DNA from: an uncultured Lachnospiraceae bacterium
GTDB lineage: Bacteria; Bacillota; Clostridia; Lachnospirales; Lachnospiraceae
Direction of reading: 5' to 3'
Assembly: GCA_900317825.1 (NCBI GenBank)
Contig: ONIH01000013.1
Location: forward strand, 6,792 to 47,343
Length of the DNA stretch: 40,552 nt
In this document: one piece after another, positions 1-31,125 of the stretch
Layout of the letters: every line of letters starts with the position of its first letter
Numbering within the stretch: the first letter of the stretch is position 1
Program-made: the position numbers and the translations under genes
Notes under the pieces: model-generated
The model's input: the letters and a program-made list of their open reading frames with translations, nothing else
What the model was told of the DNA's origin: nothing
Databases searched by the model: none

Positions 1-807
1 ATGATCGGCGTCGTAAATATGGACGAAGCCAGGGTCAAAAGAGCCAAGCAGAACGGCGCCAGCTGGGATAAGATAGTCGAGATAGCAAATGAGAAATCAT
101 TCAACGAGTGGGGAGACTTCAGGAGAAGAGTTCTCGAGAGAGCGAAGAAAGAGCTGGCAGAGCAGTGCGATGTGAAGTTTGATTATGATCCGGTAGCGGC
201 CGGAAGAGGCGGAAAGATAGTAGCAGTCAAGTTCATTATCAGCTGGAATAACCCTGGAGAAAAGGTTAGAAAAGCTATAAGCGCAAAGAAAAAGCAGGTT
301 GAAGAAACTAACAACCAGTATGAACAGATGACTCTTACGAATCTATCGGAGCAGATGGAGGCGCTTGTAGGACATAACGGGCTTTCTGAATCAGATATCA
401 GGGCGTTCCTGAAAGAATCACTGCACGATGAGAAAGAAGTCTTAAGAGCTGTGGAAATGGCTGACCGACAGGCTGGTGCACTTGATAACTATACAGGCTG
501 GATCATCTCATGCATCAGAAATCATTATGATGAGCAGATGGTGATCGACGGTTCGAGGGAAAAGGGAGACAGGGTAGTAAAAGCCAAGGAGATAATCGAA
601 GAGAAGACAGACGATGACAGAAATGCCATGTCAGCAGCATACTGGAACAAGGCGATGAAGAAGCACTCAGAGAAATTCCAGGAGTTCGAAGAGTATCTGA
701 AGAGCAGAGGTGTGTCTATGGATATGTTCACGGATGGAAATGAAGACTTTGAGTGCGGTGAGAAGTTCATGCAATGGATAAAGACCGGAGAGACGAAGCT
801 GTTCTGA
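1..807 (+). CDS. Plasmid replication initiator, Rep_3 (RepB/RepA) type, C-terminal part
   Basis: Probably binds origin iterons and starts plasmid or chromid replication. The reading frame is open at base 1, so the ATG there may be an internal Met. Residues about 30-80 match the second winged-helix domain of Rep_3 initiators: an aromatic/Trp followed by DFRRRVLERAKKEL, then a basic GRGGK turn and the beta strand VAVKFII. The first winged helix, normally about 120 residues upstream, is missing and should lie outside the window. The C-terminal half (residues 90-268) is a charged helical region typical of the family's variable tail, including NYTGWIISCIRN. No iterons are visible downstream; origins usually lie on the 5' side. 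It converges with the next gene, 3 bases apart. Family assignment rests on pattern recognition of one domain; moderately sure. Confidence 0.7.
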   Translation: MIGVVNMDEARVKRAKQNGASWDKIVEIANEKSFNEWGDFRRRVLERAKKELAEQCDVKFDYDPVAAGRGGKIVAVKFIISWNNPGEKVRKAISAKKKQVEETNNQYEQMTLTNLSEQMEALVGHNGLSESDIRAFLKESLHDEKEVLRAVEMADRQAGALDNYTGWIISCIRNHYDEQMVIDGSREKGDRVVKAKEIIEEKTDDDRNAMSAAYWNKAMKKHSEKFQEFEEYLKSRGVSMDMFTDGNEDFECGEKFMQWIKTGETKLF

Positions 808-4497: not shown

Positions 4498-5193
4498 ATG
4501 GAAAAAATAAACGGACAGAGGTATGTCTTTGTGGATTTCGAGATGCAGCCGGTCGACCACAAAGAGCATCCTGACGAGTGGAGCATCGCCAGACACGAGA
4601 TCATAGAATTCGGTGCGGTGATGCTCGACGAAGACCTGAAGGAAGTGGATCAGTTCCAGAGTTATGTAAAGCCGCGCTACTCTGTAGAGATACAGGAGAC
4701 TGTCGAGGCCATGACAGGCATCACGGCGGAGACGGTAAAAGACGCAGCGGATTTTGAGACGGTACTCGGAGACTTCATTAACTGGTGCGCTTCACCTGGG
4801 ACAGAATACGCGGTCTATGCCTGGAGTGGAGCTGATAAAGGTCAGCTTACCCATGAGATAGCCCTGAAGCAGATAAAAAAGACGGATGAGCTTGACTACA
4901 TGCTTTCACACTGGTTTGATTATCAGAAGCTCTTTACCAGGGCGATAGGCAGAAGGCTTGCAGTATCACTTGATAAGGCGGTCGAAGCCTGCGGGATGGA
5001 CTTCGAGGGACAGATGCACGACGCGCTCTGGGACGCGAGGAACACATCGAGGCTTTTCAGGCTCACCTCAGATAAGAAGAACTTCCGGAAGCTGGCTCCG
5101 CGGATAAAGCATGTGCTCGATTCCAAAGAGCACTTTACAGCTTCTCTTGGAGATTTGGTGAATCTGAAGGGTTTTGATCTGCCAAAGGAATGA
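4498..5193 (+). CDS. DEDDh-family 3'-5' exonuclease
   Basis: Likely a 3'-5' exoribonuclease or exodeoxyribonuclease of the RNase T/DnaQ/ERI1 superfamily. The four acidic metal ligands are visible: FVDFEM (D and E, residues ~13 and 15), the Asp in AWSGADKGQ (about residue 120), and HDALWDARNT, which supplies the active-site His and final Asp (about residues 170-180). EIIEFGAVML after motif I is typical of ERI1/KapD-like exonucleases. Residues 195-231 form a short unmatched tail. The start follows the zinc-finger gene by 6 bases with no strong ribosome site, suggesting coupling. It is the last gene of the cluster; a 24-bp palindrome lies 13 bases after its stop. Confidence 0.85.
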   Translation: MEKINGQRYVFVDFEMQPVDHKEHPDEWSIARHEIIEFGAVMLDEDLKEVDQFQSYVKPRYSVEIQETVEAMTGITAETVKDAADFETVLGDFINWCASPGTEYAVYAWSGADKGQLTHEIALKQIKKTDELDYMLSHWFDYQKLFTRAIGRRLAVSLDKAVEACGMDFEGQMHDALWDARNTSRLFRLTSDKKNFRKLAPRIKHVLDSKEHFTASLGDLVNLKGFDLPKE

Positions 5194-5206: not shown

Positions 5207-5260
5207 GAATAAGCATACATTTTATACTAAGCTTTATTAGTATAAAATGTATGCTTATTC
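5207..5260. repeat. Perfect 24-bp inverted repeat (palindrome)
   Basis: Positions 5207-5230 and 5237-5260 are exact reverse complements with a 6-base loop (GCTTTA). The stem is AT-rich, with arms starting GAATAAGCATACA. It lies between the exonuclease stop and the GH94-like gene. It lacks the GC stem and U run of the other terminators here, so it could be a large operator, a cruciform, or a bidirectional transcription barrier. Confidence 0.85.
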
Positions 5261-5299
5261 TATACAAATGACATATACAAATATAAAAGGAGGATTCAA

Positions 5300-7012
5300 A
5301 TGGAATACGGTTATTTTGATGACAGGGCAAAAGAGTATGTGATCACAAACCCTAAGACACCATCAGATTGGAAGAACTATCCGGGGACTGACAGGTACAG
5401 CATGGAGGTTACGAACAATGCCGGAGGCAGGGGATTTATCAGGTCAGAGGATCAGAACGAGGTACTTAAGGACAGATATGTCTATATCCGCGATGATGAT
5501 GACCTGGACTTCTGGTCAGCTTCGTGGCAGCCAGTCGGAAAGGATTTCAAGGACTATCGCAGCATCTGCCGCCATGGTCTTGGCTATACCAAGCTCTACG
5601 CTTCTTACTCAGGTATCCACTCAGAGGTCTTATATTATGTTCCGGTTGATGCGGACTATGAAGTCTGGGCAGTAAATGTCGAGAACCATTCAAAGCGCCC
5701 GAGGAACCTGACAGTCACTGGCTTCTGCTCCTTCCCTTCCAAAAATGCTTCAGACGACAGCCCATATGCTGTCTTTACTACACGGACACTCTATGAGAAT
5801 AACAAGCTCCGCTACCAGATCTTTTCAAATCTGACAGAAGATGCTGAGAGAAGTGATGGAAAGAAACTGATCGAGAGATTCTTAGGGCTTTCTGGCACTG
5901 AAGTGTCATCGTACTGCGGAGATAAAGACACATTTTTCGGGACTTACGGCGACCTCAGGGCTCCGCAGGGAATAGTCAGTGGTGACGCCGGAGATGAGCT
6001 TTCCTATGCGTCTGAGGCAGTCGGAGCACTGTCTTATAAGATAACACTTGAACCGGGTGAGAGCAGCGTGGTATGCTTTATTGCCGGGCTTAAGAGCGAT
6101 GCCGATTCTACAGAGATAATAAGACACTATGAAGTCCACACTAGAGAGACTGTTACAAAAGAACTGAAGGAGCTTAGGGCATTCTGGGCAAAGCGGCTTT
6201 CTGCATTCGAGGTACAGACTCCGTCTGCAGAGTTTAACCGCATGGTAAATGTCTGGAACCCATATACCTGTATAGCAGGTCGGGAGATAAGCGATATATC
6301 ACAGCTCCTTCCGAATCTTGCGGAGCTTCGTGATGACGGATGGTATTCTGAAGCCCTGGATGAGATGCTCGATGGCTATGCAGACGATAGAGGCAAAAAA
6401 GCACTTGATCGGATAAAGGAAAATCGCAATACTGCATTTGGAGCAGTATCTTTAGATCCTCCGTGTGAAGCTGATGATGACAGTGAAGAAGCCTTATATA
6501 ATCCTGGAGTCAGGGGAAACGGCGGGATTTTTTCACAGAGTCAGGGCAGGCTGATCCTGGCGGAAGCACTTCTGGGAAACGGTGACGACGCGTTCATGTT
6601 CTACGAGGAGAGTGCACCAGCTGCACAGAACAGAAAGGCAGATACCAGAAAGACAGAACCTTATGCATACAGTGAGTTCACAGAGGGCAAATACAGCCCG
6701 AACTTCGGAAGAAGCCACGGTTCATGGAACGCGAAGGCTGCCGGAGTCATAGAGACGGCCTGCATCGAGGGAATCTGCGGCATAAGGCCTGACGATAAGG
6801 GCCTTTACATCAGTCCTTCGATCTATTCGGAGTGGACCGAGTTTACCATTCACATGAGTTTTATGGGACACAGCCTCTGCATCCAGGTCAAGAATCCGGG
6901 ACACAGACAGTCAGGCATTGAAAAAATGACCTTAAACGGCAAAGCAGTCGAAGGCTGCTACATTTCTGAAGAAAAAATGACAGAAAACAACGATATTATC
7001 GTTTATTTATAA
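5300..7012 (+). CDS. GH94 phosphorylase paralog lacking the catalytic core (probable pseudoenzyme)
   Basis: A 570-residue relative of the cellobiose phosphorylase at 19522-21942 (806 aa). The N-terminal beta-sandwich (residues ~1-270, with DFWSASWQPVGKD and CRHGLGY shared) and linker are intact up to NVWNPYTC (residue 324). It then rejoins the family at about residue 362 (KENRNTAFGAVSLDPP), keeping the barrel end and C-terminal sheet. About 217 residues net of the (alpha/alpha)6 barrel are missing, including the segment carrying the catalytic Asp (ADWNDCL in the paralog). The phosphate-site HWLTG is also changed to GSWNA. The frame is open throughout, with AAAGGAGG before ATG, so it appears to be translated. 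It cannot be a normal phosphorylase; it could bind sugar as a sensor or partner, or be a decaying gene. Confidence 0.85.
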   Translation: MEYGYFDDRAKEYVITNPKTPSDWKNYPGTDRYSMEVTNNAGGRGFIRSEDQNEVLKDRYVYIRDDDDLDFWSASWQPVGKDFKDYRSICRHGLGYTKLYASYSGIHSEVLYYVPVDADYEVWAVNVENHSKRPRNLTVTGFCSFPSKNASDDSPYAVFTTRTLYENNKLRYQIFSNLTEDAERSDGKKLIERFLGLSGTEVSSYCGDKDTFFGTYGDLRAPQGIVSGDAGDELSYASEAVGALSYKITLEPGESSVVCFIAGLKSDADSTEIIRHYEVHTRETVTKELKELRAFWAKRLSAFEVQTPSAEFNRMVNVWNPYTCIAGREISDISQLLPNLAELRDDGWYSEALDEMLDGYADDRGKKALDRIKENRNTAFGAVSLDPPCEADDDSEEALYNPGVRGNGGIFSQSQGRLILAEALLGNGDDAFMFYEESAPAAQNRKADTRKTEPYAYSEFTEGKYSPNFGRSHGSWNAKAAGVIETACIEGICGIRPDDKGLYISPSIYSEWTEFTIHMSFMGHSLCIQVKNPGHRQSGIEKMTLNGKAVEGCYISEEKMTENNDIIVYL

Positions 7013-7020
7013 GCAAAAGG

Positions 7021-7049
7021 TTGATAAAACTTTTAGAATCTACTATAAT
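7021..7049 (+). promoter_or_regulatory. Sigma-A promoter for PilZ gene
   Basis: TTGATA (7021-7026), 17-bp spacer, TATAAT (7044-7049), starting 8 bp after the GH94-like stop codon. It gives a leader of about 28 nt with AAGGAGG before the PilZ start. Confidence 0.75.
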
Positions 7050-7083: not shown

Positions 7084-7674
7084 ATGCTTTCAGATAAGCT
7101 CAAAGAGGGTATGGATGTAATCCTCGATTATAAGACAGCAGATTCTGCAAAAGTATTCAAGACTTCAGTCATAGTGGAAGAGGGCAGTCTGATTGCCTTA
7201 GCACCGTGTACTGATGAAAATGGACAGTTTGAGGAGTTCAAAGACGGAGAAGTCAGTCTTTCGATAAAGGGTTCGAACACGATCATTTCCAAAGCCAGGT
7301 TACTTCCGGTCTATTACCATGGAGACAGGATCTATCTGACATATGGCAAGAGAAATGACGATGATGATATGACCTTCCACCGTGAGTCGGCGAGATACCC
7401 GATAAACGAAGACTGTAAGGCAAATGACCATGATGCGAAACTGATAGATGTATCAGATCACGGATTCGGTTTTATCTTAAATTATAAGTACAAGAGCGGC
7501 CTCTGGGTAGAACTCAAGTACAAGGACATAAAGGTAAACGGCAAGATAATGCAGTCCAAAGAAGTCGGTCCGGACTCATTTTTCTATGGATGCAAGGTCG
7601 ATGAAAGCACAGGGCCATTTGACAGACTCGTAAAAGAAAAAGCAGAAGAATTCAACAGCATGCTCGACGCATGA
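7084..7674 (+). CDS. PilZ-domain (YcgR-like) cyclic-di-GMP receptor
   Basis: A 196-residue cytoplasmic protein with an N-terminal YcgR-N-like beta domain (residues 1-95) and a PilZ domain (about 98-190). The c-di-GMP-binding pair is visible: RESAR (RxxxR, residue ~100) and DVSDHGFGF (D-x-S-x-x-G, residue ~122). Such proteins change conformation on binding c-di-GMP and act on flagellar motors or polysaccharide synthases. AAGGAGG precedes the ATG. It has its own promoter and terminator, so it is a single-gene unit. A diguanylate cyclase/phosphodiesterase, an HD-GYP protein and a GT2 synthase lie within the next 9 kb, suitable sources and targets of the signal. Confidence 0.8.
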   Translation: MLSDKLKEGMDVILDYKTADSAKVFKTSVIVEEGSLIALAPCTDENGQFEEFKDGEVSLSIKGSNTIISKARLLPVYYHGDRIYLTYGKRNDDDDMTFHRESARYPINEDCKANDHDAKLIDVSDHGFGFILNYKYKSGLWVELKYKDIKVNGKIMQSKEVGPDSFFYGCKVDESTGPFDRLVKEKAEEFNSMLDA

Positions 7675-19408: not shown

Positions 19409-19521
19409 TAATCAGTCATGAATCCGATAAATTTTTCCCTTAGATAATATATTTTCTTGTTCGAAAAGTAGAAAATATGAGCAGCATAAAAACTGACGCC
19501 ATACGAAAGGAACCAGAAAGT

Positions 19522-21942
19522 ATGAGATATGGACATTTCGACGAAAAAGAACGAGAATATGTGATAGAGAGACCGGATACGCCAAAGCCGTGGGCTAACT
19601 ATCTCGGGTCTCCAGAGTACGGGGCTATTATCTCGAATAATGCCGGCGGATACAGCTTTGTAAAGAGCGGAGCGAACGGCAGGATCATCAGATATATTTT
19701 TAACGGGGAGGACAAGCCGGGAAGATATATCTATATCAGAGATAATGACAGCAGGGATTTCTGGTCTGCTTCATGGCAGCCAGTAGGCAAAGACCTTGCC
19801 GCTTATAAAAATATCTGCCGCCACGGACTTGGCTATTCTGTTTTTGAGACTGATTACAGTGATATCCATTCGGAGACACTTTACTATGTCCCGGAGGGAA
19901 AGACTTACGAAGTCTGGAGAATAAAGGTAAGAAACGACGGAAGGTCAGATAGGAAGCTTACAGTTACAGGCTTTGCAGAACTTACGAACCATGATAACTA
20001 CGAGCAGGATATGGTAAACCTTCAGTATTCGCAGTTTATCACCAGCACCGATTTCCGAGGAGACCGTATCAGACAGAAGATTCACGGGAACCTCGATGCC
20101 GAGACAGAAAAAGGCGATGAGGTAGACGGCAAGGGTGTTACCGAGAGATTTTTCGGACTTGCAGGCGCTGAAGTCTCATCACACTGCGGAGACAGAGACG
20201 CTTTCCTTGGCACTTACCGTGGATATGATAACCCGGCAGGTGTAGCAGACGGTGATCTCGGTGATGTAGACGCCTATAACGGCTACTGCTGCGGAGCTCT
20301 TTCATCTGTCATAGAACTAGCACCGGGTGAAGAGAAGACTCTTGCCTTTGTCCTTGGAGAGCACAAAGATAAAAAAGCATCTGAGATAATGGCCCACTAC
20401 AAAGACACAGAGGCGGTCTGTGACAGAGAGTGGAGCGAGACAAAAGAAGTATGGGGTTCGAGACTTAAGACTTTCCAGGTAAAGACACCTTCACCTGAGT
20501 TCAATACGATGATAAATACCTGGAACGCCTACAACTGCTACATGACAGTTATCTGGTCGAGAGCTGCTTCATTTATCTACTGCGGACTCAGAAACGGCTA
20601 CGGCTACAGGGATACAGTTCAGGATATCCAGGGAATCATTCACCTGGATCCGGAACTTGCGCTTGAGAAGATCCGTTTCATGCTGACAGCACAGGTAGAT
20701 AACGGTGCCGGACTTCCACTCGTAAAGTTCACACATAACCCTGGACACGAAGATACACCAGATGATGCTTCATATGTACAGGAGACCGGGCATCCGGCTT
20801 ACAGAGCAGATGATGCACTCTGGCTGTTCCCGACTGTATATAAATACATCGCTGAGACTGGAAACGTAGACTTCTTAAACGAAGTACTTCCATTTGCAAA
20901 TAAGGATGAAGCTACAGTCTATGAGCATCTGAAAAGAACTATCGAATTTTCACTTGATCATCTCGGAAAGCATGGACTTCCGGCAGGCCTCTACGCAGAC
21001 TGGAATGACTGCTTAAGGCTCGGAGCAGACGGAGAATCGGCATTCGTGGCGCTTCAGTTCTACTATGCACTCCGAATCATGAAGATCCTCACGGTATATG
21101 AAAAGGACATGAAGTACGCAGATCATCTGGATCTGACAGAAGCAGAGTATCTGCAGAAGATAAATGAGCTGCTCTGGGACGGAGACAGGTTCATCAGAGG
21201 ATATACGGAAACTGGAGAGACTGTAGGAGATAAAAAGTCACAGGAGGCCAAGCTCTGGCTCAATCCGCAGTCCTGGTCGGTCATCAGCGGACTTGCGACA
21301 GACGAGCAGGCAGACGCAGCGTTAGAGAACGTACATGAGAACCTGAACACCGAGTACGGTGCTATACTCATGGATCCGCCTTATCATAAGCATGCTTTCG
21401 ACGGTGCATTCGCCGTGATCTATAATCAGGGAACCAAAGAGAACTCCGGAGTCTTCTCGCAGACACAGGGTTGGCTGATCCTCGCTGAGGCGCTTCGCGG
21501 ACACGGAGACAGGGCTTTTGAGTACTGGTATGAGAATTCTCCATCCGTACAGAACGATAAGGCAGAGATCAGAAAACTGGAGCCTTACTGCTACGGACAG
21601 TTCACCGAAGGAAAGGCAAGCCCGCACGCAGGAGAGAGCCATGTACACTGGCTTACCGGAACAGCATCTACGATGATGGTAGGCTGTGTCGAGGGTATCC
21701 TCGGTATCAGACCTGACATCGGCGGACTGAAGCTAGCTCCATCGATCCCGAAGAGCTGGGATCACCTCGAGATAGATAAGGATTTCCGCGGAAAGCATCT
21801 GCACATCACGGTAGAAAATCCGGGACACGCAGAGTCGGGATTCAAGTCGATGACTCTTAACGGAAAGAGCCTTTCCGGAAACTATATCGCGGAAAAGCTC
21901 CTGACCGAGGATAATAACGAGATCATTCTTAAAATATCATAA
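19522..21942 (+). CDS. Cellobiose phosphorylase, GH94
   Basis: Cytoplasmic enzyme converting cellobiose and phosphate to glucose and alpha-glucose-1-phosphate. At 806 residues it has the length of characterised cellobiose phosphorylases. The N-terminal beta-sandwich runs to about 300, the (alpha/alpha)6 catalytic barrel from about 320 to 740. The catalytic acid is Asp 496 in YADWNDCLRLG; the phosphate-site loop SHVHWLTGTAS and the segments GYRDTVQD and NQGTKENSGVFSQTQGW are intact. The ATG at 19522 follows AAGGAA and aligns with the start of the truncated paralog; the ATG at 19477 lacks a ribosome site. It stands alone, and its last 6 bases overlap the end of the convergent AraC gene. Confidence 0.9.
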   Translation: MRYGHFDEKEREYVIERPDTPKPWANYLGSPEYGAIISNNAGGYSFVKSGANGRIIRYIFNGEDKPGRYIYIRDNDSRDFWSASWQPVGKDLAAYKNICRHGLGYSVFETDYSDIHSETLYYVPEGKTYEVWRIKVRNDGRSDRKLTVTGFAELTNHDNYEQDMVNLQYSQFITSTDFRGDRIRQKIHGNLDAETEKGDEVDGKGVTERFFGLAGAEVSSHCGDRDAFLGTYRGYDNPAGVADGDLGDVDAYNGYCCGALSSVIELAPGEEKTLAFVLGEHKDKKASEIMAHYKDTEAVCDREWSETKEVWGSRLKTFQVKTPSPEFNTMINTWNAYNCYMTVIWSRAASFIYCGLRNGYGYRDTVQDIQGIIHLDPELALEKIRFMLTAQVDNGAGLPLVKFTHNPGHEDTPDDASYVQETGHPAYRADDALWLFPTVYKYIAETGNVDFLNEVLPFANKDEATVYEHLKRTIEFSLDHLGKHGLPAGLYADWNDCLRLGADGESAFVALQFYYALRIMKILTVYEKDMKYADHLDLTEAEYLQKINELLWDGDRFIRGYTETGETVGDKKSQEAKLWLNPQSWSVISGLATDEQADAALENVHENLNTEYGAILMDPPYHKHAFDGAFAVIYNQGTKENSGVFSQTQGWLILAEALRGHGDRAFEYWYENSPSVQNDKAEIRKLEPYCYGQFTEGKASPHAGESHVHWLTGTASTMMVGCVEGILGIRPDIGGLKLAPSIPKSWDHLEIDKDFRGKHLHITVENPGHAESGFKSMTLNGKSLSGNYIAEKLLTEDNNEIILKIS

Positions 21943-22701
21943 CCAGGCTTTGCCTTCTTCATTTACCGACCACTCTGTCTTACCGTATTTCTCGCGGTAT
22001 TTCAGAGGAGTCGTTCCGATGGCTTTTTTGAAAGTCTGAATGAAATGACTCTGTGAAGAAAATGACAGGCGGTTAGCTATATCGACCATACTATAGGGAC
22101 TGTACTTAAGTAGATTAGTTGCAGTCTCTATTTTTTTCTGCCTTACGTATTCACTTACGGAAACGCCGACCTCTTTTTTAAAGACACGGGACAGATATCC
22201 GGAAGAAACACCTACTGACTCAGCCACGTCTTCGACCGAGACCGGATCATTGCGGTGTATATATATGTAATTTAATGCGTTCTGGACCGGCCCGGACACC
22301 TTGATCTGAGTATCTGTCATTCGCATTTTTGTCGCAAAATCTGTGGCCATAGCGTCGTGCAGTTTTTCGACACCTGATATAGACTTTATATCGTCCAGCT
22401 GCTGGATGTAGTAATCGCTCATCCTAAATCCCTGCTCTTCGATCATGCCTGCACGGATACATACACGGGTAATAAGCGCACAGCTGACAACAAAGTGATA
22501 TTTGATATTTGTCAGCGGGTCGCGCGACAGCTTTCCTACACCGTCAGTGGAGATGAATCTGTGGGCCTCGCAGTTCTGTCTTACTGCTTCGAGGTTTCCT
22601 CTGGCGACCTCTTTGTAAAATGCCTGTTCTTCGGACGCAGGACGGTGTTTTTCGGTTTCATTGTCTTTTGCTATTTCGAAATGTTCAAATCTATTTTCCA
22701 T
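21937..22701 (-). CDS. AraC/XylS-family transcription regulator
   Basis: A 254-residue regulator. The C-terminal AraC domain (about 150-245) has two helix-turn-helix motifs: VEDVAESVGVSSGYLSRVFKK and MVDIANRLSFSSQSHFIQTFKK, followed by the GTTPLKYRE signature. The N-terminal part (about 25-130) is the helical domain found in many Firmicutes YesN-like regulators (RDPLTNIKYHFVVSCALITR, MSDYYIQQLD) and not a sugar-binding cupin. Divergence from the ABC importer and convergence with cellobiose phosphorylase point to control of beta-glucoside use. The -10 TATAAT (22713-22708) ends 6 bases before the ATG, so translation is apparently leaderless, and no ribosome site is present. Confidence 0.9.
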   Translation of the reverse strand: MENRFEHFEIAKDNETEKHRPASEEQAFYKEVARGNLEAVRQNCEAHRFISTDGVGKLSRDPLTNIKYHFVVSCALITRVCIRAGMIEEQGFRMSDYYIQQLDDIKSISGVEKLHDAMATDFATKMRMTDTQIKVSGPVQNALNYIYIHRNDPVSVEDVAESVGVSSGYLSRVFKKEVGVSVSEYVRQKKIETATNLLKYSPYSMVDIANRLSFSSQSHFIQTFKKAIGTTPLKYREKYGKTEWSVNEEGKAWL

Positions 22702-22710
22702 GAATTTATT

Positions 22711-22751
22711 ATATCAGATTTGTGATGAAAATGAGTGCACGAATCTGATAT
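22711..22751. promoter_or_regulatory. 10-bp inverted-repeat operator between AraC and importer genes
   Basis: ATATCAGATT (22711-22720) and AATCTGATAT (22742-22751) are perfect inverted repeats with a 21-bp spacer, about three helical turns centre to centre. The left arm overlaps the -10 of the AraC gene; the right arm overlaps the -35 of the importer operon. It is the best candidate for the AraC protein's binding site. Confidence 0.65.
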
Positions 22752-22774
22752 TTTTTCTTTTCATTTTGTATAAT
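22746..22774 (+). promoter_or_regulatory. Promoter of ABC importer operon
   Basis: TATAAT at 22769-22774 with a poor -35 (TGATAT, 22746-22751, 17-bp spacer) that coincides with an operator arm. A weak -35 replaced by an activator site is typical of AraC-controlled promoters. A second TATAAT at 22792-22797 has no -35. Confidence 0.6.
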
Positions 22775-22843
22775 GATGTACCCATGAAGAATATAATCTA
22801 AGCATAGTTACAAAGAACGGAGATTTCAAAGGAGGAAATCACA

Positions 22844-24226
22844 ATGAAAAAGAAAATCGTAAGTATGGCACTCATCGCAGCGATGACAGCCACAATGTTC
22901 GCAGGATGTGGATCTAATTCCTCATCTTCATCATCAAAGTCTTCAAGTGGTAAAGAGGGAAGAGTCTTAAACATCTGGAGCTGGAATGACGAGTTCGAGA
23001 CCAGATTCAATGACTTCTATCCTGAAGTAGAGTCTGTATCAAAGGACAAGACAGAGACAAAGCTGAAGGATGGTACAGTAGTAAAGTGGACGATCAATCC
23101 TAACCAGGACGGCGTTTACCAGCAGAAGCTCGATGAAGCTCTTCAGAATCAGGCTACGGCCTCAGCTGATGACAAGATCGACATCTTCCTTGCTGAGACA
23201 GATTATCTGGTAAAGTACACAGACGCTGACGCAAACGCATCAATGCCTCTGAAGGACTTAGGTATTGATCCTGACAAAGACTTCGCTGATCAGTATCAGT
23301 ACACAAAGGATGCCGCTACAGATAAGAATGGCGACTTAAGAGCTACCAGCTGGCAGGCTTGTCCGGGACTCTTCGTATACAGAAGAGGAATCGCAAAGAA
23401 TGCTTTCGGAACAGATGATCCGGAAAAGATCCAGGAGAAGGTAAAGGATTGGGATACATTCGAGCAGTCAGCAAAGGAACTCAAGGATAAAGGTTATTAC
23501 ATGCTTTCATCAATGGGCGCTGATACCTACAGAGTATTCGGTAACAATGCAAGCGAGCCATGGGTACAGGGCGATACAGTTACTGTAGACCCTAACCTTA
23601 TGAAGTGGGTAGAGCAGTCAAAGAAGTTCACGGACGAAGGATACAACCACAAAGTATCAGGACAGTGGACAGATGACTGGAACAAAGATCAGGGTGCTGA
23701 TTCAAAGGTATTCGGATGGTTCTTCCCAGCTTGGGGTATCAACTTCACTATCCAGCCTAACGCAGGAGATAAAGGAGCAGGAGACTGGGCTGTATGTAAT
23801 GGACCACAGTCTTATAACTGGGGCGGTTCATTCATCCTTGCAGCGCAGGGAACAGATAACCCGAAGCTCGTTAAAGATATCATGCTGAAGCTTACAGCTG
23901 ATAAGGATACACTCCTTAAGATCACAGATAAGACTCTTGACTATACCAACACAGTTTCAGGTATGGAAGAGTATGCTGCTGATGATAAGAAGGGTGATTC
24001 AGACTTCCTTGGCGGCGAGAACCCATACAAGTACTTCGCTCCAGCTGCTGAGAGCATCAAGATGGATAAGATCACACCTTATGATCAGGGATGCGGCGAG
24101 TGCTTCCAGAACGCATTTGGTGATTACTTCAACGGCAAGGTTTCATTTGACAAGGCAAAGAAGAACTTCGAGACAGCTATCCTCGAGAGATACAGTGACC
24201 TCAAGAAGGTAGAGTGGCCTAAGTAA
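22844..24226 (+). CDS. ABC importer substrate-binding lipoprotein (family 1), sugar
   Basis: Captures an oligosaccharide at the outer face of the membrane. The signal peptide ends in a lipobox FAGC (Cys 22), followed by a Ser-rich linker and the solute-binding fold of family 1 starting VLNIWSWNDEFETRF. Length (460 aa) is typical. AAAGGAGG precedes the ATG by 8 bases. Codon use is strongly biased to the preferred codons of the window, implying high expression. It is first in the operon with two permeases; no ATPase gene is present, so a shared MsmX-type ATPase elsewhere in the genome is probably used. Context suggests cellobiose, gentiobiose, laminaribiose or similar ligands. Confidence 0.92.
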   Translation: MKKKIVSMALIAAMTATMFAGCGSNSSSSSSKSSSGKEGRVLNIWSWNDEFETRFNDFYPEVESVSKDKTETKLKDGTVVKWTINPNQDGVYQQKLDEALQNQATASADDKIDIFLAETDYLVKYTDADANASMPLKDLGIDPDKDFADQYQYTKDAATDKNGDLRATSWQACPGLFVYRRGIAKNAFGTDDPEKIQEKVKDWDTFEQSAKELKDKGYYMLSSMGADTYRVFGNNASEPWVQGDTVTVDPNLMKWVEQSKKFTDEGYNHKVSGQWTDDWNKDQGADSKVFGWFFPAWGINFTIQPNAGDKGAGDWAVCNGPQSYNWGGSFILAAQGTDNPKLVKDIMLKLTADKDTLLKITDKTLDYTNTVSGMEEYAADDKKGDSDFLGGENPYKYFAPAAESIKMDKITPYDQGCGECFQNAFGDYFNGKVSFDKAKKNFETAILERYSDLKKVEWPK

Positions 24227-24268
24227 TAATTACCTGGTCAAAAGGGTTTTTCCTGGAAAGGCTTTACT

Positions 24269-25252
24269 ATGAAGAAGAAAACAAAGAAAGCTAAGAATTA
24301 TTCGAATTACGGATATTTATTTATCGCACCGTTTTTCATCAGTTTCGTGATCTTTTCACTGATACCGCTGGTCGATACGATAAAGAACAGTTTCTATGAG
24401 TACTATACTTCCGGACTCAAAGTAGTGGGACCGAACTTCATAGATCTTCAGAACTACTCACAGATACTGAAGGCAGACCTGCTTAAATACACCGGAAACA
24501 CATTCGTCCTCTGGATTGCCGGTTTCATCCCGCAGATCGTGATAGCGCTTATACTTGCAGCGTGGTTTACAGATCAGCACATGAAGCTTAGAGGAAGAAA
24601 AGTGTACGAAGTCATCATTTACATGCCAAACCTTATCATGGCATCGGCTTTCGCAATGCTCTTCTTCACCCTCTTCTCTAACTCAGGTCCTGTGAACTCA
24701 CTTTTACAGCAGCTTCACATCACCAAAGAGCCGATAAGGTTCCTGGCCTCAGTGTCAGGAACCAGAGGCCTGATAGCACTGATGAACTTCCTGATGTGGT
24801 TCGGAAACACGACTATCATGCTGATGTCGGCTATAAACGGCGTAAACCCAGAGCTTTTTGAAGCAGCGAACCTGGATGGCTGCACACATACGCAGATATT
24901 CTTCAGGATCACGCTTCCTATGATAAGACCAATACTTACCTACACTCTTATCACCTCTCTTATCGGTGGTATCCAGATGTTCGATGTACCTCAGATCCTT
25001 ACCAACGGTAATGGTTCTCCGGACAGAAGCTCGATGACACTTATCATGCTCCTCAACAACTATCTGAAGACCAAGAACTATGGTATGGCAGGTGCACTTT
25101 CGGTTTACCTGTTTATCATCAGTGGTATCCTCTGCTTCATCGTTTACCGTTTCATCAATACTGACAGTTCGGATAACGAAGCAAAGGCAAAGGCTAAGAG
25201 AGAAAAACGTCAGAAAAAGATCGCCACAGTGGAAGGAGGAATCACAGTATGA
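24269..25252 (+). CDS. ABC sugar importer permease (MalF/UgpA type)
   Basis: A 327-residue inner-membrane permease with six helices. The EAA loop that docks the ATPase reads EAANLDGCTHTQIFFRITLP (about residues 196-215). The first helix (YLFIAPFFISFVIFSLIPL) and the FYEYYTSG segment are typical of MalF-like subunits. The Lys/Arg-rich tail (KAKAKREKRQKK) is cytoplasmic. The start has GGAAAGG about 9 bases upstream. Its stop overlaps the second permease by ATGA, as usual for heterodimer partners. Confidence 0.93.
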   Translation: MKKKTKKAKNYSNYGYLFIAPFFISFVIFSLIPLVDTIKNSFYEYYTSGLKVVGPNFIDLQNYSQILKADLLKYTGNTFVLWIAGFIPQIVIALILAAWFTDQHMKLRGRKVYEVIIYMPNLIMASAFAMLFFTLFSNSGPVNSLLQQLHITKEPIRFLASVSGTRGLIALMNFLMWFGNTTIMLMSAINGVNPELFEAANLDGCTHTQIFFRITLPMIRPILTYTLITSLIGGIQMFDVPQILTNGNGSPDRSSMTLIMLLNNYLKTKNYGMAGALSVYLFIISGILCFIVYRFINTDSSDNEAKAKAKREKRQKKIATVEGGITV

Positions 25253-26091
25253 AAAGCCATTCAGAAAGAACAAGAGTAGTAATAGCACAGATAGTGCTCG
25301 TGATCCTCTCATTCATGTGTATGTTCTTCTTCTACATCCTGATCATCAACTCGACCAGGTCTCATGTAGAACTACAGAAAGGATTCTCATTCCTTCCGAG
25401 CACACATTTTGCGAAGAACCTGACAAACGTATTAAACGATGGAACTCTTCCAGTCGTAAACGGTATCATCAACAGCCTTATAGTGGCAGCCTGCAGTGCG
25501 GCTCTGTCGACTTACTTTTCAGCGATGACTGCATTCGGACTTTACGTGTATGATTTCAAGCTGAGAAAAGCAGCGTTTACATTTATCATGGCAATCATGG
25601 TAATGCCTACACAGGTTACCGCACTTGGTTTCTTAAGACTCATCACGAACATGGGAATGTATGATACGGTTCTTCCGCTGATCATCCCTTCGATAGCTTC
25701 ACCGGCAGTATTCTACTTCATGTACAGCTACATGGAGTCATCACTTCCGGCAGCTCTCGTTGAAGCAGCCAGAATAGATGGTGCAAGTGAGTTCAGGATC
25801 TTTAACCAGATAGTCATTCCTATCATGAAGCCGGCTATCGCAGTACAGGCCATCTTCACCTTCGTAGGTTCCTGGAATAACTACTTCATTCCAGCCCTTG
25901 TTCTTCAGACAAAGAAGAAGATGACTCTTCCTATACTTATCGCAACCCTTCGTGGTGCTGATTACATGAACTTCGATATGGGTAAGATCTACATGATGAT
26001 CATGGTAGCTATCGTTCCTATCATCATCGTATATCTCTTCCTTTCGAGATTCATCATCGCCGGTATTACCCTTGGTGGTGTTAAGGAGTAA
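25249..26091 (+). CDS. ABC sugar importer permease (MalG/UgpE type)
   Basis: A 280-residue inner-membrane permease with six helices, partner of the preceding MalF-type subunit. The EAA loop is EAARIDGASEFRIFNQIVIP (about residues 179-198). GGAGG lies inside the preceding gene, 9 bases before the ATG. The stop codon overlaps the ribosome site of the GH3 gene, which begins 3 bases later, so importer and glucosidase are co-translated. Confidence 0.93.
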   Translation: MKSHSERTRVVIAQIVLVILSFMCMFFFYILIINSTRSHVELQKGFSFLPSTHFAKNLTNVLNDGTLPVVNGIINSLIVAACSAALSTYFSAMTAFGLYVYDFKLRKAAFTFIMAIMVMPTQVTALGFLRLITNMGMYDTVLPLIIPSIASPAVFYFMYSYMESSLPAALVEAARIDGASEFRIFNQIVIPIMKPAIAVQAIFTFVGSWNNYFIPALVLQTKKKMTLPILIATLRGADYMNFDMGKIYMMIMVAIVPIIIVYLFLSRFIIAGITLGGVKE

Positions 26092-26094
26092 TTT

Positions 26095-28341
26095 ATGAGT
26101 GAGGCTGGTCTCAGCCCTCTTGCGCAGGGCATATCATTACCCGTCGAAGGAGAAAAGTACAATTCACCAGGCTCGATAGATGTGATCCGTCGGGCCGGTG
26201 ATGAAGCCATAGTTCTTCTAAAAAACGACGATGAAGTCCTACCGATAAAGGACGAGCGTGTCGCAGTTTTCGGCAGATGCCAGATCAATACATTTTTCGT
26301 AGGATATGGAAGTGGAGGCGACGTCAAGCCGACCAGAAAAGTATCTATCCTCGATGGCATAAAAAGTGCCGGCATAAACTACGACACAGAACTGGCCAGA
26401 GCCTATAAAGCATGGTGTCCTGATCATATACCTGACGAAGGCACCTGGGGTAAATGGCCTTTCAGTTTTCCTGAAATGCCTGTCTCTGACGAGCTGATGC
26501 AGGCGGCTTCCGACAGCTGTGAAAAAGCAGTAGTCGTGATAGGCAGGGCGGCAGGCGAAGACAGAGATAACACTCTTACAAAGGGCAGCTTCTTCCTCAC
26601 AGATGAGGAGGAAGCCCTCCTTGAAAAAGTAGACAAAGCATTTGAAAATGTCATAGTTCTTTTAAATATCGGTGGTCCTATAGATTTCACCTGGCTTAAA
26701 AAATACAGTAACCTGAAAGGCCTTCTGATCGTCTGGCAGCTGGGACAGGAAATGGGTCATGCGGTAGCAGATGTACTTACCGGCAGAGTCTCTCCTTCAG
26801 GGCATTTAACCCAGACTATAGCTGAAAAGTACGATGACTATCCGTCAGCCGCCCATTTCGGAGATCCGGACTCTAACGAGTACAAAGAAGGCGTCCGTGT
26901 AGGTTACAGAGGGCTTAAAGAAGCTCTGTTCCCATTCGGATACGGTCTGTCTTATACGACCTTCGATACACAGGTGCTGGACTATAAAGAGACAGCTCAT
27001 ACCTTTGAGTTCAGGACAGAGATCAAGAATACCGGAAAGCGTTCAGGAAAAGGGTTAGTCCAGCTGTATGCCACTATTCCGGGATATGATTTCAGGACTC
27101 TTGTAGGATATGGGAAGTCTGATGAGCTCGCACCTGGTGAGAGTGAAGTCATTCTCCTCTCGGTTAAAAAAGTCCAGGTTTCGATCTACGACACCGATTC
27201 CGAAAGTTTCGTGATACAGAAAGGCTTCTATGAATTTTTCATAGGAGACACGCCATATGATACTATTGTAAAAGCTGGTCAGGCGACTGTCACAGATGAT
27301 ATAGTCGTTCAGAAATGCGAGAGTATCACAGAAGGCTCTGAGAAGCTAAAAGAGAGGATACATGACAGACTTCCTGCTCCTGTAGAGACTATAGTCCAAG
27401 AGCAGATCAGCTTTGATGATGTAAGAGCTGGAAAGTATTCCCTGGATGACTTCATAGCGCAGATGACTCCGGCAGAGCTTTCGGATCTGTCGCGCGGCGA
27501 AGGTGATATGGATTCACCTAATGCCATCAAAGGAAACGCAGGTGTATTCGGTGGAATCACACCCGCCTTAAAGAAAAAAGATATTCCGATAATAAATACT
27601 TCGGATGGTCCTTCGGGACTCCGTGTATGCAGATACAGTTCACTTCTTCCTATAGGCACAGCTGTTGCCAGCACCTGGAACAGGCGCCTGACAGAAGAGT
27701 TGTATTCGTCGGAAGCGGACGACATGAAGCACTACGGAGTTGATGTATTGCTCGGCCCTGGAATGAACATCCAGAGAAATCCGCTCTGCGGCAGGAATTT
27801 CGAATACTATTCGGAAGACCCGTACCTGTCAGGAATGACAGCCGGTGCCGCCGTAAGAGGCATCCAGAGCAAAGGAGCTGCAGCCTGCATAAAGCACTTT
27901 GCCTGCAACAACCAGGAGACAAACCGGTACAGGAATTCAAGCGATGTAGATGAAAAGACTCTTAGAGAGATCTATCTGAAGCCTTTTGAGATCGCCATCC
28001 GTGAATCCTCACCGAAGTGCATTATGACAAGCTATAACCAGATAAACGGTGTCTGGGCACATTACAATTACGACCTGGTAAAGACAGTGCTCAGAAAAGA
28101 ATGGGGCTACAAGGGCCTGGTCATGACAGACTGGTGGATGCAGCTGGCTGACAGTCCTGAATTCCCTGGAGTGAAAAATAACGCGTACCGTATCCGCGCA
28201 GGTGTAAACCTCTTGATGCCTGGCGCACTGATACGAGGCGATGTAGGGTTTGTACATGACTCCGACCCGGAGAACTACCTGACCCTTGGAGAACTTCAGG
28301 AAAACGCCCGCTACATTCTAAACTTCATTTTACTTAGGTAA
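26095..28341 (+). CDS. GH3 beta-glucosidase with reversed domain order, cytoplasmic
   Basis: Hydrolyses beta-glucosides taken up by the importer. No signal peptide. The domain order is inverted relative to most GH3 enzymes: the alpha/beta sandwich domain comes first (residues ~25-280, DEAIVLLKND, GYGSGGD), then a fibronectin-III-like domain (about 295-375), and last the TIM-barrel domain (about 450-748). The barrel has the sugar-binding KHFACNNQE and the nucleophile Asp 679 in GLVMTDWWM. This layout is known from Butyrivibrio fibrisolvens and Ruminococcus albus beta-glucosidases and supports the taxonomic guess. It follows the second permease by 3 bases with GGAG overlapping the upstream stop, and is the last gene before a strong hairpin. 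Confidence 0.92.
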   Translation: MSEAGLSPLAQGISLPVEGEKYNSPGSIDVIRRAGDEAIVLLKNDDEVLPIKDERVAVFGRCQINTFFVGYGSGGDVKPTRKVSILDGIKSAGINYDTELARAYKAWCPDHIPDEGTWGKWPFSFPEMPVSDELMQAASDSCEKAVVVIGRAAGEDRDNTLTKGSFFLTDEEEALLEKVDKAFENVIVLLNIGGPIDFTWLKKYSNLKGLLIVWQLGQEMGHAVADVLTGRVSPSGHLTQTIAEKYDDYPSAAHFGDPDSNEYKEGVRVGYRGLKEALFPFGYGLSYTTFDTQVLDYKETAHTFEFRTEIKNTGKRSGKGLVQLYATIPGYDFRTLVGYGKSDELAPGESEVILLSVKKVQVSIYDTDSESFVIQKGFYEFFIGDTPYDTIVKAGQATVTDDIVVQKCESITEGSEKLKERIHDRLPAPVETIVQEQISFDDVRAGKYSLDDFIAQMTPAELSDLSRGEGDMDSPNAIKGNAGVFGGITPALKKKDIPIINTSDGPSGLRVCRYSSLLPIGTAVASTWNRRLTEELYSSEADDMKHYGVDVLLGPGMNIQRNPLCGRNFEYYSEDPYLSGMTAGAAVRGIQSKGAAACIKHFACNNQETNRYRNSSDVDEKTLREIYLKPFEIAIRESSPKCIMTSYNQINGVWAHYNYDLVKTVLRKEWGYKGLVMTDWWMQLADSPEFPGVKNNAYRIRAGVNLLMPGALIRGDVGFVHDSDPENYLTLGELQENARYILNFILLR

Positions 28342-28356
28342 CTTCTTCATTATAAT
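28329..28356 (+). promoter_or_regulatory. Possible promoter between GH3 and second GH94 gene
   Basis: TTTACT (28329-28334), 16-bp spacer, TATAAT (28351-28356). If real, the hairpin at 28371-28399 lies within the leader of the GH94 gene and would act as an attenuator. Confidence 0.35.
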
Positions 28357-28370
28357 AAATTCCTCTTCAT

Positions 28371-28399
28371 AAAAAGCTGCGGCATGTCCGCAGCTTTTT
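28371..28399. terminator. Strong terminator after GH3 gene
   Basis: Perfect 12-bp stem AAAAAGCTGCGG / CCGCAGCTTTTT with loop CATGT. It ends only 32 bases before the next GH94 gene, which then needs its own promoter or partial read-through. Confidence 0.88.
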
Positions 28400-28431
28400 A
28401 AAACTAAAGCTTTATAAGCAGAAAGGAATAT

Positions 28432-31125
28432 ATGGACGGAATACAATTTTTAGATAACGATGGGACCTTTGAACTGGATCGTCCGGAAGATTACAGCTAT
28501 CTGTATTTTCCGCTTGCCAGTGAAAAAGGCTTAAAGAGCAGTATCACTCCGAATCTCGGCGGTGATATAAAAATAGATCAGACGTCTTTTTTACTTGAGC
28601 CTGTAAGTGCTGAGAATCTGCACAACAACAGGAGCACCAGGAATTTCTGGGCCAAGTTCGATAATGGTGATGTATGGTCAGCAGCCGGAAGCTCTGCTGA
28701 GGCTGAAAATGACAAGTTCACGAAGGCTCAGGACAACTCAAAGATCACTGCCGGTTTTATGTGGCAGAATATAGAGCGCGAGTCAAAAAAATATGGTATC
28801 AGTGCCGAGATCACATCATTCGTACCTAGAGACTTAAACGCCGAGGTCATGTCGGTAAAGCTAAAAAATACTTCCGATAAGACAGAGAAGTTCACGCCGG
28901 TTGCCGCAGTTCCTATATATGGCAGAAGTGCTGATAATATCCGTGACCACAGGAACGTGACCTCGATGCTCCATCGAATCCACACTGATAAGTACGGTAT
29001 CATCGTGACTCCTACGATGTCATTTGATGAGAGAGGACATAAGAAAAATCATACGTCGTATTTTGTCTATGGAGAGTCAGGTGAAGGTAAGGCTCCGGAA
29101 GTATTTTACCCTACAGTTGATCTGTTCCTGGGAGAAGGAGGAACCTTCACTCATCCGGGAGCTGTCTACAGAGACCTGAAAGGCGCAAAGGCAGGAGAAT
29201 ATTTTGCCGGTAGAGAAGCCGTCGGTGCGCTTCAGTTTGCTGAGATAACGCTTGCCCCTGGAGAAGAGGTAAGCTACACTGTTCTTTTGGGAATCACGCC
29301 GGTGGGAACAGATCTGGCACCTGTCATCGACAGATTCAGCAGTACAGAAAAGACAGAAAGCGAGCTTAAAGAGGTAAAGGATTACTGGAAAAAGGAAGTC
29401 AGCATCAGCTACCATACCGGGAACCATTCATTTGATGAACTGATGAAGTGGGTTACCTTCCAGCCATTTTTACGCAGGATCTTCGGATGTTCGTTCCTTC
29501 CTCATCATGATTACGGCAGAGGCGGCAGAGGCTGGAGAGACCTTTGGCAGGATTCGCTTTCTCTTCTGATGATGAACCCGAAGGAAGTCAGAGATGATCT
29601 GGTAAGCTATTTCGGCGGAGTCAGGATCGATGGAACGAATGCTACGATCATAGGTGACAAGCCGGGAGAATTCAAGGCTGACAGAAACGGTATTGCCCGT
29701 GTCTGGATGGATCATGGCATGTGGCCTTTCCTTACGATAGAGCTCTATCTGAACCAGACAGGAGACTATTCCATCCTGAGCGAAGAGGCCCCGTATTTCC
29801 AGGACCGCCAGATTTTCAGAGGAACTGATACTGACAGCAACTGGAATGAAAAGGACGGCACTATACTGAAGGACAAGGGTGGAAAAACCATAAATGGAAC
29901 AGTCCTTGAACATATACTCATCGAGACACTGACCGAATTCTACGAGGTCGGCCAGCATAATATCATCCGTCTCCGTGGAGCCGACTGGAACGATGCTCTC
30001 GATATGTCTGATGAAAATGGTGAGAGTGTAGCATTTACCTATGCTTATGCAGGAAATCTGAAGCGTCTGTCGAAGCTCCTTAGTCTGCTCGATCAGAAGG
30101 AAGGCATCCATGAGGTGACACTTAACAGAGCTCTTGAAGTACTGCTTGAGAACGGCACCGACAGATACGAGTCTGTCGAAGAAAAGACAAAGGCCCTGAA
30201 AAAATATTTTTCAAAGGTACAGCCAGAGACTGACGGCGCAAAGGCAGATTTCGACGTAAAGACGCTTGCTGATAATCTGGAAGAAAAAGCCGACTGGCTT
30301 ATGGATTTTCTGAGAAAGCAGGAGTGGATCGAGACTCCGTCTGACTCATGGTTTAACAGCTACTATGATAATTCTGGAAACAGAGTCGAAGGAGTACAGG
30401 AGGACGGCAGTGTCAGGATGATGCTTACCGGACAGGTCTTTGCTATCATGAGCGGTACGGCGAGTGACGATGAAGTCGCAAGCATTGCCAAAGCTGCCGA
30501 TCATTATCTCTACAGGGAAGACATAGGCGGATACCGTCTGAACACAGACTTCCATGAGCTGAAAATGGACCTTGGCCGAATGTTCGGATTTGCCTACGGT
30601 GAAAAAGAGAACGGCGCTGTATTCTCACACATGGCAGTCATGTACGCGAATGCGCTCTATGGCAGAGGCTTCGCAAAAGAAGGTTGTAAGGCTGTTAAGG
30701 CACTGACAGATGCCTGCATGAACTTTGATAAGAGCCGCATCTATCCGGGCATCCCTGAGTATTTCAGGACCGATGGACGTGGAATGTATCACTATCTGAC
30801 AGGTGCAGCCAGCTGGCTGATGATGACTGTCGTACAGGAGATGTACGGGGTAAAGGGTGTATCAGGTGATCTGGTCATCACACCGCGTCTTACAGCAGAA
30901 CAGTTTGACGCTGACGGAAAAGCCAGTATCAGTCTGCCGTTTGCGGGAAGCCGCATTCACGTCACGATCGAAAATCCTGCTAAGAAGGAAACTGGAGCTT
31001 ACACTGTCGAAAGTGCCTTCCTTAACGGCACAGAAATATCTCACGGCGCTGACTTTGTCTCGATAGACAGAGATCAGATAGCAGACAAAGAAAAAGAACA
31101 GGAAATCCGTATTGTACTCGGATAA
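28432..31125 (+). CDS. GH94 phosphorylase, divergent subfamily (laminaribiose/cellodextrin type possible)
   Basis: An 897-residue cytoplasmic inverting phosphorylase of beta-linked gluco-oligosaccharides. The N-terminal beta-sandwich (about 1-300) is followed by the (alpha/alpha)6 barrel with HHDYGRGGRGWRDLWQD (about 365-380), ARVWMDHGMWPF, and the catalytic Asp 521 in RGADWNDALDM. The phosphate loop appears as YHYLTGAASWLM. It is only distantly related to the cellobiose phosphorylase upstream and has an insertion at about 565-640. Length and the GRGGRGWRDLWQD motif recall laminaribiose phosphorylases and related Lachnospiraceae enzymes, but specificity is not readable from the sequence. AAAGGA lies before the ATG; it is separated from the importer operon by a terminator. 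Confidence 0.85.
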   Translation: MDGIQFLDNDGTFELDRPEDYSYLYFPLASEKGLKSSITPNLGGDIKIDQTSFLLEPVSAENLHNNRSTRNFWAKFDNGDVWSAAGSSAEAENDKFTKAQDNSKITAGFMWQNIERESKKYGISAEITSFVPRDLNAEVMSVKLKNTSDKTEKFTPVAAVPIYGRSADNIRDHRNVTSMLHRIHTDKYGIIVTPTMSFDERGHKKNHTSYFVYGESGEGKAPEVFYPTVDLFLGEGGTFTHPGAVYRDLKGAKAGEYFAGREAVGALQFAEITLAPGEEVSYTVLLGITPVGTDLAPVIDRFSSTEKTESELKEVKDYWKKEVSISYHTGNHSFDELMKWVTFQPFLRRIFGCSFLPHHDYGRGGRGWRDLWQDSLSLLMMNPKEVRDDLVSYFGGVRIDGTNATIIGDKPGEFKADRNGIARVWMDHGMWPFLTIELYLNQTGDYSILSEEAPYFQDRQIFRGTDTDSNWNEKDGTILKDKGGKTINGTVLEHILIETLTEFYEVGQHNIIRLRGADWNDALDMSDENGESVAFTYAYAGNLKRLSKLLSLLDQKEGIHEVTLNRALEVLLENGTDRYESVEEKTKALKKYFSKVQPETDGAKADFDVKTLADNLEEKADWLMDFLRKQEWIETPSDSWFNSYYDNSGNRVEGVQEDGSVRMMLTGQVFAIMSGTASDDEVASIAKAADHYLYREDIGGYRLNTDFHELKMDLGRMFGFAYGEKENGAVFSHMAVMYANALYGRGFAKEGCKAVKALTDACMNFDKSRIYPGIPEYFRTDGRGMYHYLTGAASWLMMTVVQEMYGVKGVSGDLVITPRLTAEQFDADGKASISLPFAGSRIHVTIENPAKKETGAYTVESAFLNGTEISHGADFVSIDRDQIADKEKEQEIRIVLG

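Follow-up and report, generated by a model that had tools for sequence, protein, structure and literature searches.

The window analysed here is a stretch of 40,552 nucleotides from an uncultured Lachnospiraceae bacterium (assembly GCA_900317825.1, contig ONIH01000013.1, positions 6,792 to 47,343 of the forward strand). It contains a gene that reads as a GH94 phosphorylase from which the middle has been removed. This raises the question whether the gutted gene is decaying or encodes a protein that is kept for a non-catalytic role, and which role that might be. Positions below are those of the window.

The short GH94 gene and its missing core

The gene starts with ATG and runs uninterrupted from position 5300 to 7012 on the plus strand, resulting in a product of 570 aa. 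Both the open frame of 570 codons and the ribosome-binding site noticed in the original prediction are confirmed: AAAGGAGG is present at 5286-5293, and its AAAGGAG is retained in the short genes of two congeneric genomes (G010 and G003; the genome of the window is G000). The features discussed in the text are the following:

4498..5193, plus strand: exonuclease of the RNase_T family, upstream neighbour (Pfam, locus comparison)
5208..5259, no strand assigned: long palindrome 3' of the exonuclease gene (pattern scan, locus comparison)
5286..5293, plus strand: ribosome-binding site (read from the sequence)
5300..7012, plus strand: short GH94 pseudo-phosphorylase gene, 570 aa (translation, Pfam, alignment, codon model)
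5360..6088, plus strand: supersandwich domain PF06165, residues 21-263, profile-complete with trimmed loops (Pfam, alignment)
within 5360..6088, plus strand: presumed opposing loop, residues about 146-156, inside the supersandwich, trimmed (motif)
6089..6223, plus strand: helical linker, residues 264-308 (model, omega by region)
6224..6274, plus strand: first barrel helix, residues 309-325 (alignment, model)
6275..6424, plus strand: junction, residues 326-375, in place of the 263-268 residues of full-length enzymes that contain the catalytic Asp segment (alignment, model)
6425..6778, plus strand: segment between the junction and the C-terminal domain (Pfam, model, omega by region)
6515..6517, plus strand: codon 406, the -1 subsite Glu of GH94 (motif KENGGIF), mapped to LpSOGP E917 by motif spacing
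6716..6739, plus strand: former phosphate loop, HWLTGT in full-length enzymes and here HGSWNAKA, residues 473-480 (alignment)
6779..7009, plus strand: C-terminal domain, residues 494-570 (Pfam, model)
7021..7049, plus strand: promoter-like TTGATA-17-TATAAT between the short GH94 and PilZ genes (sequence)
7084..7674, plus strand: PilZ-domain protein, a weak match of 23.1 bits against a cut-off of 22.5 (Pfam, locus comparison)
19522..21942 (ORF from 19477), plus strand: full-length GH94 paralogue, 806 aa, BpGH94MLG-like, a possible partner (Pfam, PDB search)

Pfam detects the PF06165 supersandwich over its entire profile (positions 1-251 of 251, E 3e-50). The PF17167 catalytic domain is matched only at positions 1-38 and 284-420 of 420; positions 39-283 are absent and the (alpha/alpha)6 catalytic barrel is thus incomplete. 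Sandwich, linker and C-terminal domain are present, in agreement with the claim that both ends are shared with the 806-aa protein. In the short protein, the motifs NPYTC and RNTAFG are separated by 51 residues (325-375) versus 268 in the 806-aa paralogue, which matches the predicted net loss of about 217 residues; the orthologues of two further congeners (G009 and G007) have 263. The predicted removal of the catalytic Asp segment also holds: the ADWND segment (general acid and platform Trp), assigned by motif to D515 of BpGH94MLG and the platform Trp, is absent from all three short proteins and present in 11 of 11 full-length proteins.

The barrel may have been lost in more than one deletion, with at least two blocks removed, because a stretch of the junction aligns to residues C-terminal of the catalytic segment. 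For G000, the alignment to these post-catalytic residues of G009 and G007 scores 50, which is reached by none of 200 shuffles, and for G010 it scores 43 (reached by 1 of 200); for G003 it is not significant (p 0.145). Taken separately, the two halves of the junction give p-values of 0.14 and 0.08 (G000), 0.9 and 0.11 (G010), and 0.26 and 0.015 (G003), and MAFFT places the stretch elsewhere than the shuffle-tested alignment does. At least two further, shorter losses are located in sandwich loops according to the alignment.

The roles of an Arg-Asp pair and a Glu in the -1 subsite, as well as the phosphate contacts, are described for LpSOGP (excerpts of PMC5309861), and residues of this enzyme and of R. 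thermocellum CDP were mapped onto the short protein by motif and spacing. The GYRDTVQD segment with the Arg-Asp pair is missing from the short proteins and the Trp-Asp of the -1 site is gone as well, while the Glu at residue 406 is replaced by G in G000, D in G010 and Q in G003. The alteration of the phosphate loop that had been predicted is present (HWLTGT to SWNAKA): over the three short proteins His is replaced by S, S and K, and Thr by A and Gly by K in all three. Residues matching the LpSOGP phosphate contacts Y922 and H924 are retained as F411 (three of three) and Q413 (two of three), with the identities found in full-length enzymes of the same lineage. In GH94 dimers an opposing loop reaches into the neighbour's pocket, where its Gln contacts the neighbour's substrate (excerpts of the R. 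thermocellum CDP paper, PMC5667895). This Gln, invariant in the 11 full-length proteins, is P, D or S in the three short proteins. Phosphorolysis of the known type by the short protein is very unlikely, because the mapped sugar contacts of the -1 subsite are either missing or substituted, and the phosphate and partner-reaching loops are changed.

Over the alignment as a whole, 351 columns are invariant in the 11 full-length proteins, and 135 of these are retained in all three short proteins. In 176 columns the residue occurs in none of the three (54 ungapped, 122 with at least one gap). Conversely, 44 residues are fixed in the short clade and found in none of the 11 aligned full-length proteins. 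The hydropathy shift of the barrel remnant is small (-0.10), which leaves a general re-surfacing unsupported. A split enzyme, with the missing middle encoded elsewhere, was rejected for the own genome, which (90% complete) contains seven PF17167 matches in four genes and no lone middle piece.

AlphaFold, supplied with 18 relatives and two window proteins, returns a model with a pLDDT of 86, in which residues 338-361 fall under 50; with the three short sequences alone, the pLDDT is 31 and the model uninformative. The best PDB matches of the model are 8bou, 1v7v and cellobiose phosphorylases. Foldseek ranks two 8bou chains first and second (TM 0.90 by query length), and 8bou is also the closest solved relative of the short protein in sequence (521 bits). 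The model is no independent proof of the fold, since the pLDDT of 86 rests on full-length homologues. The model speaks for the compatibility of the short sequence with a GH94 scaffold, which would still fold around the beta-sandwich and linker, but not for the stability of the half-barrel.

Conservation of the gene and its locus in the genus

The short gene occurs in three of the 13 genus genomes, the own genome included. The search for homologues of about 570 aa with the same deletion thus returned two congeners, G010 and G003, in which the protein is interrupted at the same place. Their products are 75% (G010, over 570 residues) and 65% (G003) identical to that of G000 and free of stops. The genes of the three assemblies are 66-72% identical in DNA, have the same junction at the protein level, differ in length by whole codons and are located between the same exonuclease and PilZ genes. 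G007 and G009 encode an intact 800-aa GH94 upstream of the same PilZ gene and the same run of S1, 5'-3' exonuclease and GGDEF-EAL genes, and these enzymes are 60-61% identical to the short protein over its first part. In G012, the exonuclease and PilZ genes are adjacent, with both flanks recognisable and the GH94 gene absent between them; this genome (100% complete) has neither a match to the short protein nor a PF06165 match. One locus in the genus therefore displays the GH94 gene as intact (G007, G009), gutted but conserved (G000, G010, G003) and lost (G012).

Phylogenetically, the three short proteins and the G007/G009 orthologues split from the other full-length enzymes with a support of 100. 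The branching order inside the short clade has a support of only 48 in the gene tree, and neighbouring genes give the order ((G000,G010),G003) with a support of 89. G012 is placed beside G003 with a weak support of 64, so that either the intact or the short form may have been lost there. Since the junction is shared and the short proteins form one branch in the tree, we infer a single origin of the gutted gene. In the common ancestor of the three species, in-frame deletion would have removed most of the catalytic barrel from a GH94 beta-1,4-gluco-oligosaccharide phosphorylase gene beside a PilZ gene, after which selection would have kept the remaining protein.

Broader searches covered sampled groups of the family, the order and relatives. 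A search of 397 family genomes with the protein at E 1e-60 gave a whole-length match in one short frame only in the own genome; the matches include a frame of 417 aa in G076. Several frames of 160-555 aa in the genus match one half only, and one of G010 (contig C42) and some others lie at contig ends. Among the matches listed for 392 order genomes searched with PF06165 are about nine frames of 284-749 aa. In 32 relatives, a short frame spanning both halves was detected only in L038 and L039, with partial matches in L067 and L069. Plasmid records matching the short protein number 151, with none at ≥ 60% among the ten matches listed.

Selection was assessed with a purpose-written codon model (559 columns, 7 of 14 sequences, tree ((G000,G010),G003)), in which omega is 0.106 for the short clade and 0.051 for the full-length branches. 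The synonymous branches are long, making omega values uncertain, and the rejection of omega = 1 for the short clade is nevertheless not close (2dlnL 545); the full-length value is rejected with a 2dlnL of 18.7. Taken singly, the tips of the short clade have omegas of 0.081, 0.075 and 0.151; on the short internal branch leading to G000 and G010, omega is 0.65. The gene shows no stops and no frameshifts, while neutral simulation at the G000-G010 divergence yields a mean of 16 stops and a minimum of 6 in 200 runs. An omega of about 0.1, far from 1, and the same junction in two further genomes led us to reject recent decay. The short gene very probably encodes a maintained pseudoenzyme, which has lost its catalytic core and is kept by purifying selection.

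With branch lengths held fixed, the ratio of omega in the short clade to that in full-length enzymes differs by region. The linker, at 0.9, is the sole region that is not above the full-length enzymes. The C-terminal domain follows with 1.4, the junction with 1.9 and the sandwich with 2.2 (2dlnL 38.8), and the highest ratios are those of the barrel remnant (4.3, 2dlnL 62.9) and the first barrel helix (6.0, 2dlnL 15.2). By these ratios little is left of the special constraint on the catalytic domain, about half of that on the sandwich and all of that on the linker.

A conspicuous palindrome upstream of the gene, part of the original prediction, exists at 5208-5259 (arms of 23 bp, AATAAGCATACATTTTATACTAA, loop of 6), but its tie to the short gene does not hold. 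The exact pattern occurs once per genome in five of the 13 genus genomes, with a slightly different sixth copy in G003, and lies directly after the exonuclease gene in all six. The next gene in G007, G009 and G012 is not a GH94 gene, and a role as operator of the short gene was therefore rejected; the palindrome goes with the exonuclease gene. G003 and G012 carry a paired change that keeps the arms complementary with one G-U each. The window has no Rfam match. In the sample of 397 family genomes, the palindrome matches in only two, both belonging to this genus, and it resembles a conserved 3' hairpin or operator.

The PilZ gene directly follows the short gene in three genomes. In G007 and G009, it follows a small ORF of about 66-81 aa behind the full-length gene (L121 12324-12569 and L120 6903-7118, respectively). 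This ORF resembles a ribbon-helix-helix DNA-binding protein, with Pfam matches below the cut-offs in both genomes (in G007, RHH_1 scores 19.9 bits and the cut-off is 20.5). An EAL-type gene lies directly upstream of the intact GH94 (L121 7943-9856 in G007 and L120 9626-11539 in G009, assigned by Pfam for G007 only), by which the intact enzyme is flanked by c-di-GMP genes (EAL-type, PilZ). Between PilZ and S1, G010 carries two further genes (L118 5716-8395): a polysaccharide-deacetylase gene that includes an Ig-like domain, and an ORF of 490 aa for which Pfam gives no match at E 1e-4. Homologues of Rep3-type replication initiators occur near the GH94 locus (window 1-807; L118-L124 and L128), namely also in G010, G003, G009, G007, G001, G005, G004 and G012, with Pfam confirmation for the window, L118 and L121. 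A ParA-type gene near the locus is confirmed in G007 and G010. The locus may lie beside the replication genes of a chromid or megaplasmid, i.e. of a secondary replicon.

Full-length paralogues and possible roles

The 806-aa paralogue had been taken for a cellobiose phosphorylase. Its closest match is instead BpGH94MLG of Blautia producta (8bou, 1308 bits), and it resembles the mixed-linkage-glucan (MLG) phosphorylase type rather than a cellobiose phosphorylase. BpGH94MLG is described as acting on cellotriose and mixed-linkage oligosaccharides and as not accepting cellobiose (excerpts of PMC10318527); the PDB molecule name of 8bou, 'N,N'-diacetylchitobiose phosphorylase', mismatches the biochemistry given there. 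The 806-aa gene has an AraC regulator, two ABC permeases and a GH3 as neighbours, an arrangement similar to part of the mixed-linkage-glucan locus of B. producta. The region 19477-31125, comprising these genes and a second, laminaribiose-phosphorylase-like GH94 (897 aa, 918 bits to 6ggy), is a probable mixed-linkage-glucan/cellodextrin utilisation locus. A 460-aa protein in the position of a binding protein has no Pfam match at E 1e-4, and no GH16 was found among the proteins searched.

A cellobiose-phosphorylase-like gene of G000 is located on contig C42 (811 aa, 1239 bits to 3qde). This enzyme coexists with the short gene in all three genomes, the G003 and G010 copies being 87% identical to that of G000. 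The MLG-type paralogue is present in two of the three: in G010 as a piece at a contig end (90% identical over 538 residues), and it was not found in G003 (MAG, 91% complete).

The original prediction derived a non-catalytic role from the maintained frame and named a sugar sensor, an assembly partner and an inhibitor. The maintained derivative is upheld by the shared deletion and an omega of about 0.1. The loss of the mapped -1 contacts speaks against a sensor that would use the old sugar site, and a role as assembly partner or inhibitor is possible as judged from sequence.

We tentatively favour, at somewhat less than even chances, a role as non-catalytic dimer partner. The short protein would dimerise with itself or with an active GH94, either the cellobiose phosphorylase (three of three genomes) or the MLG/cellodextrin-type paralogue (two of three), and could set the amount, stability or acceptor access of the active enzyme, as trypanosome prozymes do. 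This reading is favoured because sandwiches make up most of the GH94 dimer interface (excerpts of PMC5667895) and an extra sandwich replaces a subunit in LpSOGP; moreover, the region that would correspond to this interface is relaxed less than the barrel, judging by the ratios of 0.9 and 2.2 for linker and sandwich versus 4.3 and 6.0 for the barrel parts. Against it stand the presence of the short gene in G003 without a close MLG-type paralogue, the loss in all three short proteins of the opposing-loop Gln, and a constraint weaker than in full-length enzymes, both overall and in the sandwich. The omega of 0.65 on the short internal branch, a G000-G010 identity below that of the matched neighbours and the dependence of the confident structure model on full-length homologues count against it as well. 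The trimmed loop would not complete the partner's site, which argues against a simple version of the partner role. As this presumed loop is trimmed, a mixed dimer may instead give the active subunit an acceptor pocket that is incomplete and more open. The most specific form, a GH94 'prozyme' whose trimmed loop opens the acceptor site in mixed dimers from disaccharides to longer beta-glucan oligosaccharides, is quite improbable; if true, cells would tune chain-length specificity via the amount of a dead GH94 subunit.

It is possible, if rather doubtful, that the short protein is a self-standing binding or structural protein, i.e. a sandwich homodimer for a glucan, another ligand or a partner, with no need for an active GH94 and possibly linked to the neighbouring PilZ (c-di-GMP) gene. 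The 44 residues fixed in the short clade and the missing close paralogue in G003 point in this direction, as does the GH94-like domain of Cgs, which has a non-catalytic role and whose surface binds glucan (excerpts of PMC10901819). A link to c-di-GMP is suggested by the position of the PilZ gene, downstream of the short gene in three genomes and of the intact orthologue in two, and by the EAL-type gene upstream of GH94 in G007 and G009. However, the PilZ gene has a promoter-like site of its own and is retained in G012 without a GH94 gene, and no candidate ligand site can be proposed. As the conserved cellobiose phosphorylase speaks for a dimer partner and Cgs for this rival, the odds between the two stay as given.

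An inhibitory role, in which dead or half-dead dimers lower GH94 activity in a dominant-negative manner, is unlikely. It is consistent with a protein that has kept sandwich and linker but has lost the active site as well as what it would contribute to the pocket of a partner. Against it, no close paralogue was found in G003.

Slow decay of a still-translated pseudogene heading for loss is strongly disfavoured. In its favour, G012 keeps both flanks but not the gene, constraint is relaxed about twofold overall and more in the barrel, and omega is high on the stem, at 0.36-0.60 in the three models with a free short clade. In addition, the G000-G010 identity of the short protein (75%) is below that of each matched neighbour from Rep3 to the GGDEF-EAL gene (77-97%). 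In contrast, neutrality is firmly rejected, stops are absent, gaps are whole codons, and the G000-G003 identity of 65% is close to the values for PilZ (67%) and the 463-aa gene (65%). An assembly artefact or mis-joined reads can practically be dismissed: the three genomes are draft assemblies, with 53, about 140 and about 120 contigs, but the junction is common to three separate assemblies whose short genes differ as much in DNA as given above.

If a dimer partner is indeed what the short protein has become, it would matter because the GH94 acceptor pocket is built at the dimer interface, where a selected dead subunit could act as a natural regulator or retuner. The series of intact, gutted-conserved and lost forms at one locus offers a test of how an enzyme becomes a non-enzyme and of what role a half-barrel can have.

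Comparison with known systems

A free-standing, naturally dead GH94 under selection was not found in the portions of the open-licence literature searched. Dead paralogues as a kind and a non-catalytic role of the GH94-like domain in Cgs are already known. The closest structural relative, BpGH94MLG (8bou), shares the sandwich, linker and C-terminal domain with the short protein; it is described as an intact dimeric phosphorylase with Asp515 as general acid (excerpts of PMC10318527), whereas the short protein is without that segment. In LpSOGP, a 1,2-beta-oligoglucan phosphorylase, an extra domain (Ndom1) replaces the sandwich of the second subunit (excerpts of PMC5309861). This extra sandwich is fused to an active enzyme, unlike the short protein, which is separate and has a gutted barrel.

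The cyclic beta-1,2-glucan synthase Cgs resembles the short protein in that a GH94-type fold has a role beyond catalysis. As described for this enzyme, the phosphorylase active site is dispensable for glucan synthesis, domain truncations have a strong effect and the domain binds glucan (PMC10901819). The Cgs domain, however, belongs to a large membrane enzyme and was experimentally inactivated in that study, whereas the short protein is free and lost its barrel naturally. The nearest precedents for a dimer partner in terms of mode of action are the trypanosome AdoMetDC prozyme, a catalytically dead paralogue that joins and activates the live enzyme (excerpts of PMC5201418), and a dead deoxyhypusine synthase paralogue that does the same (excerpts of PMC3663545). 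These prozymes come from unrelated enzymes and organisms; in the short GH94 protein the loss takes the form of a large deletion, and the GH94 partners named above are candidates.
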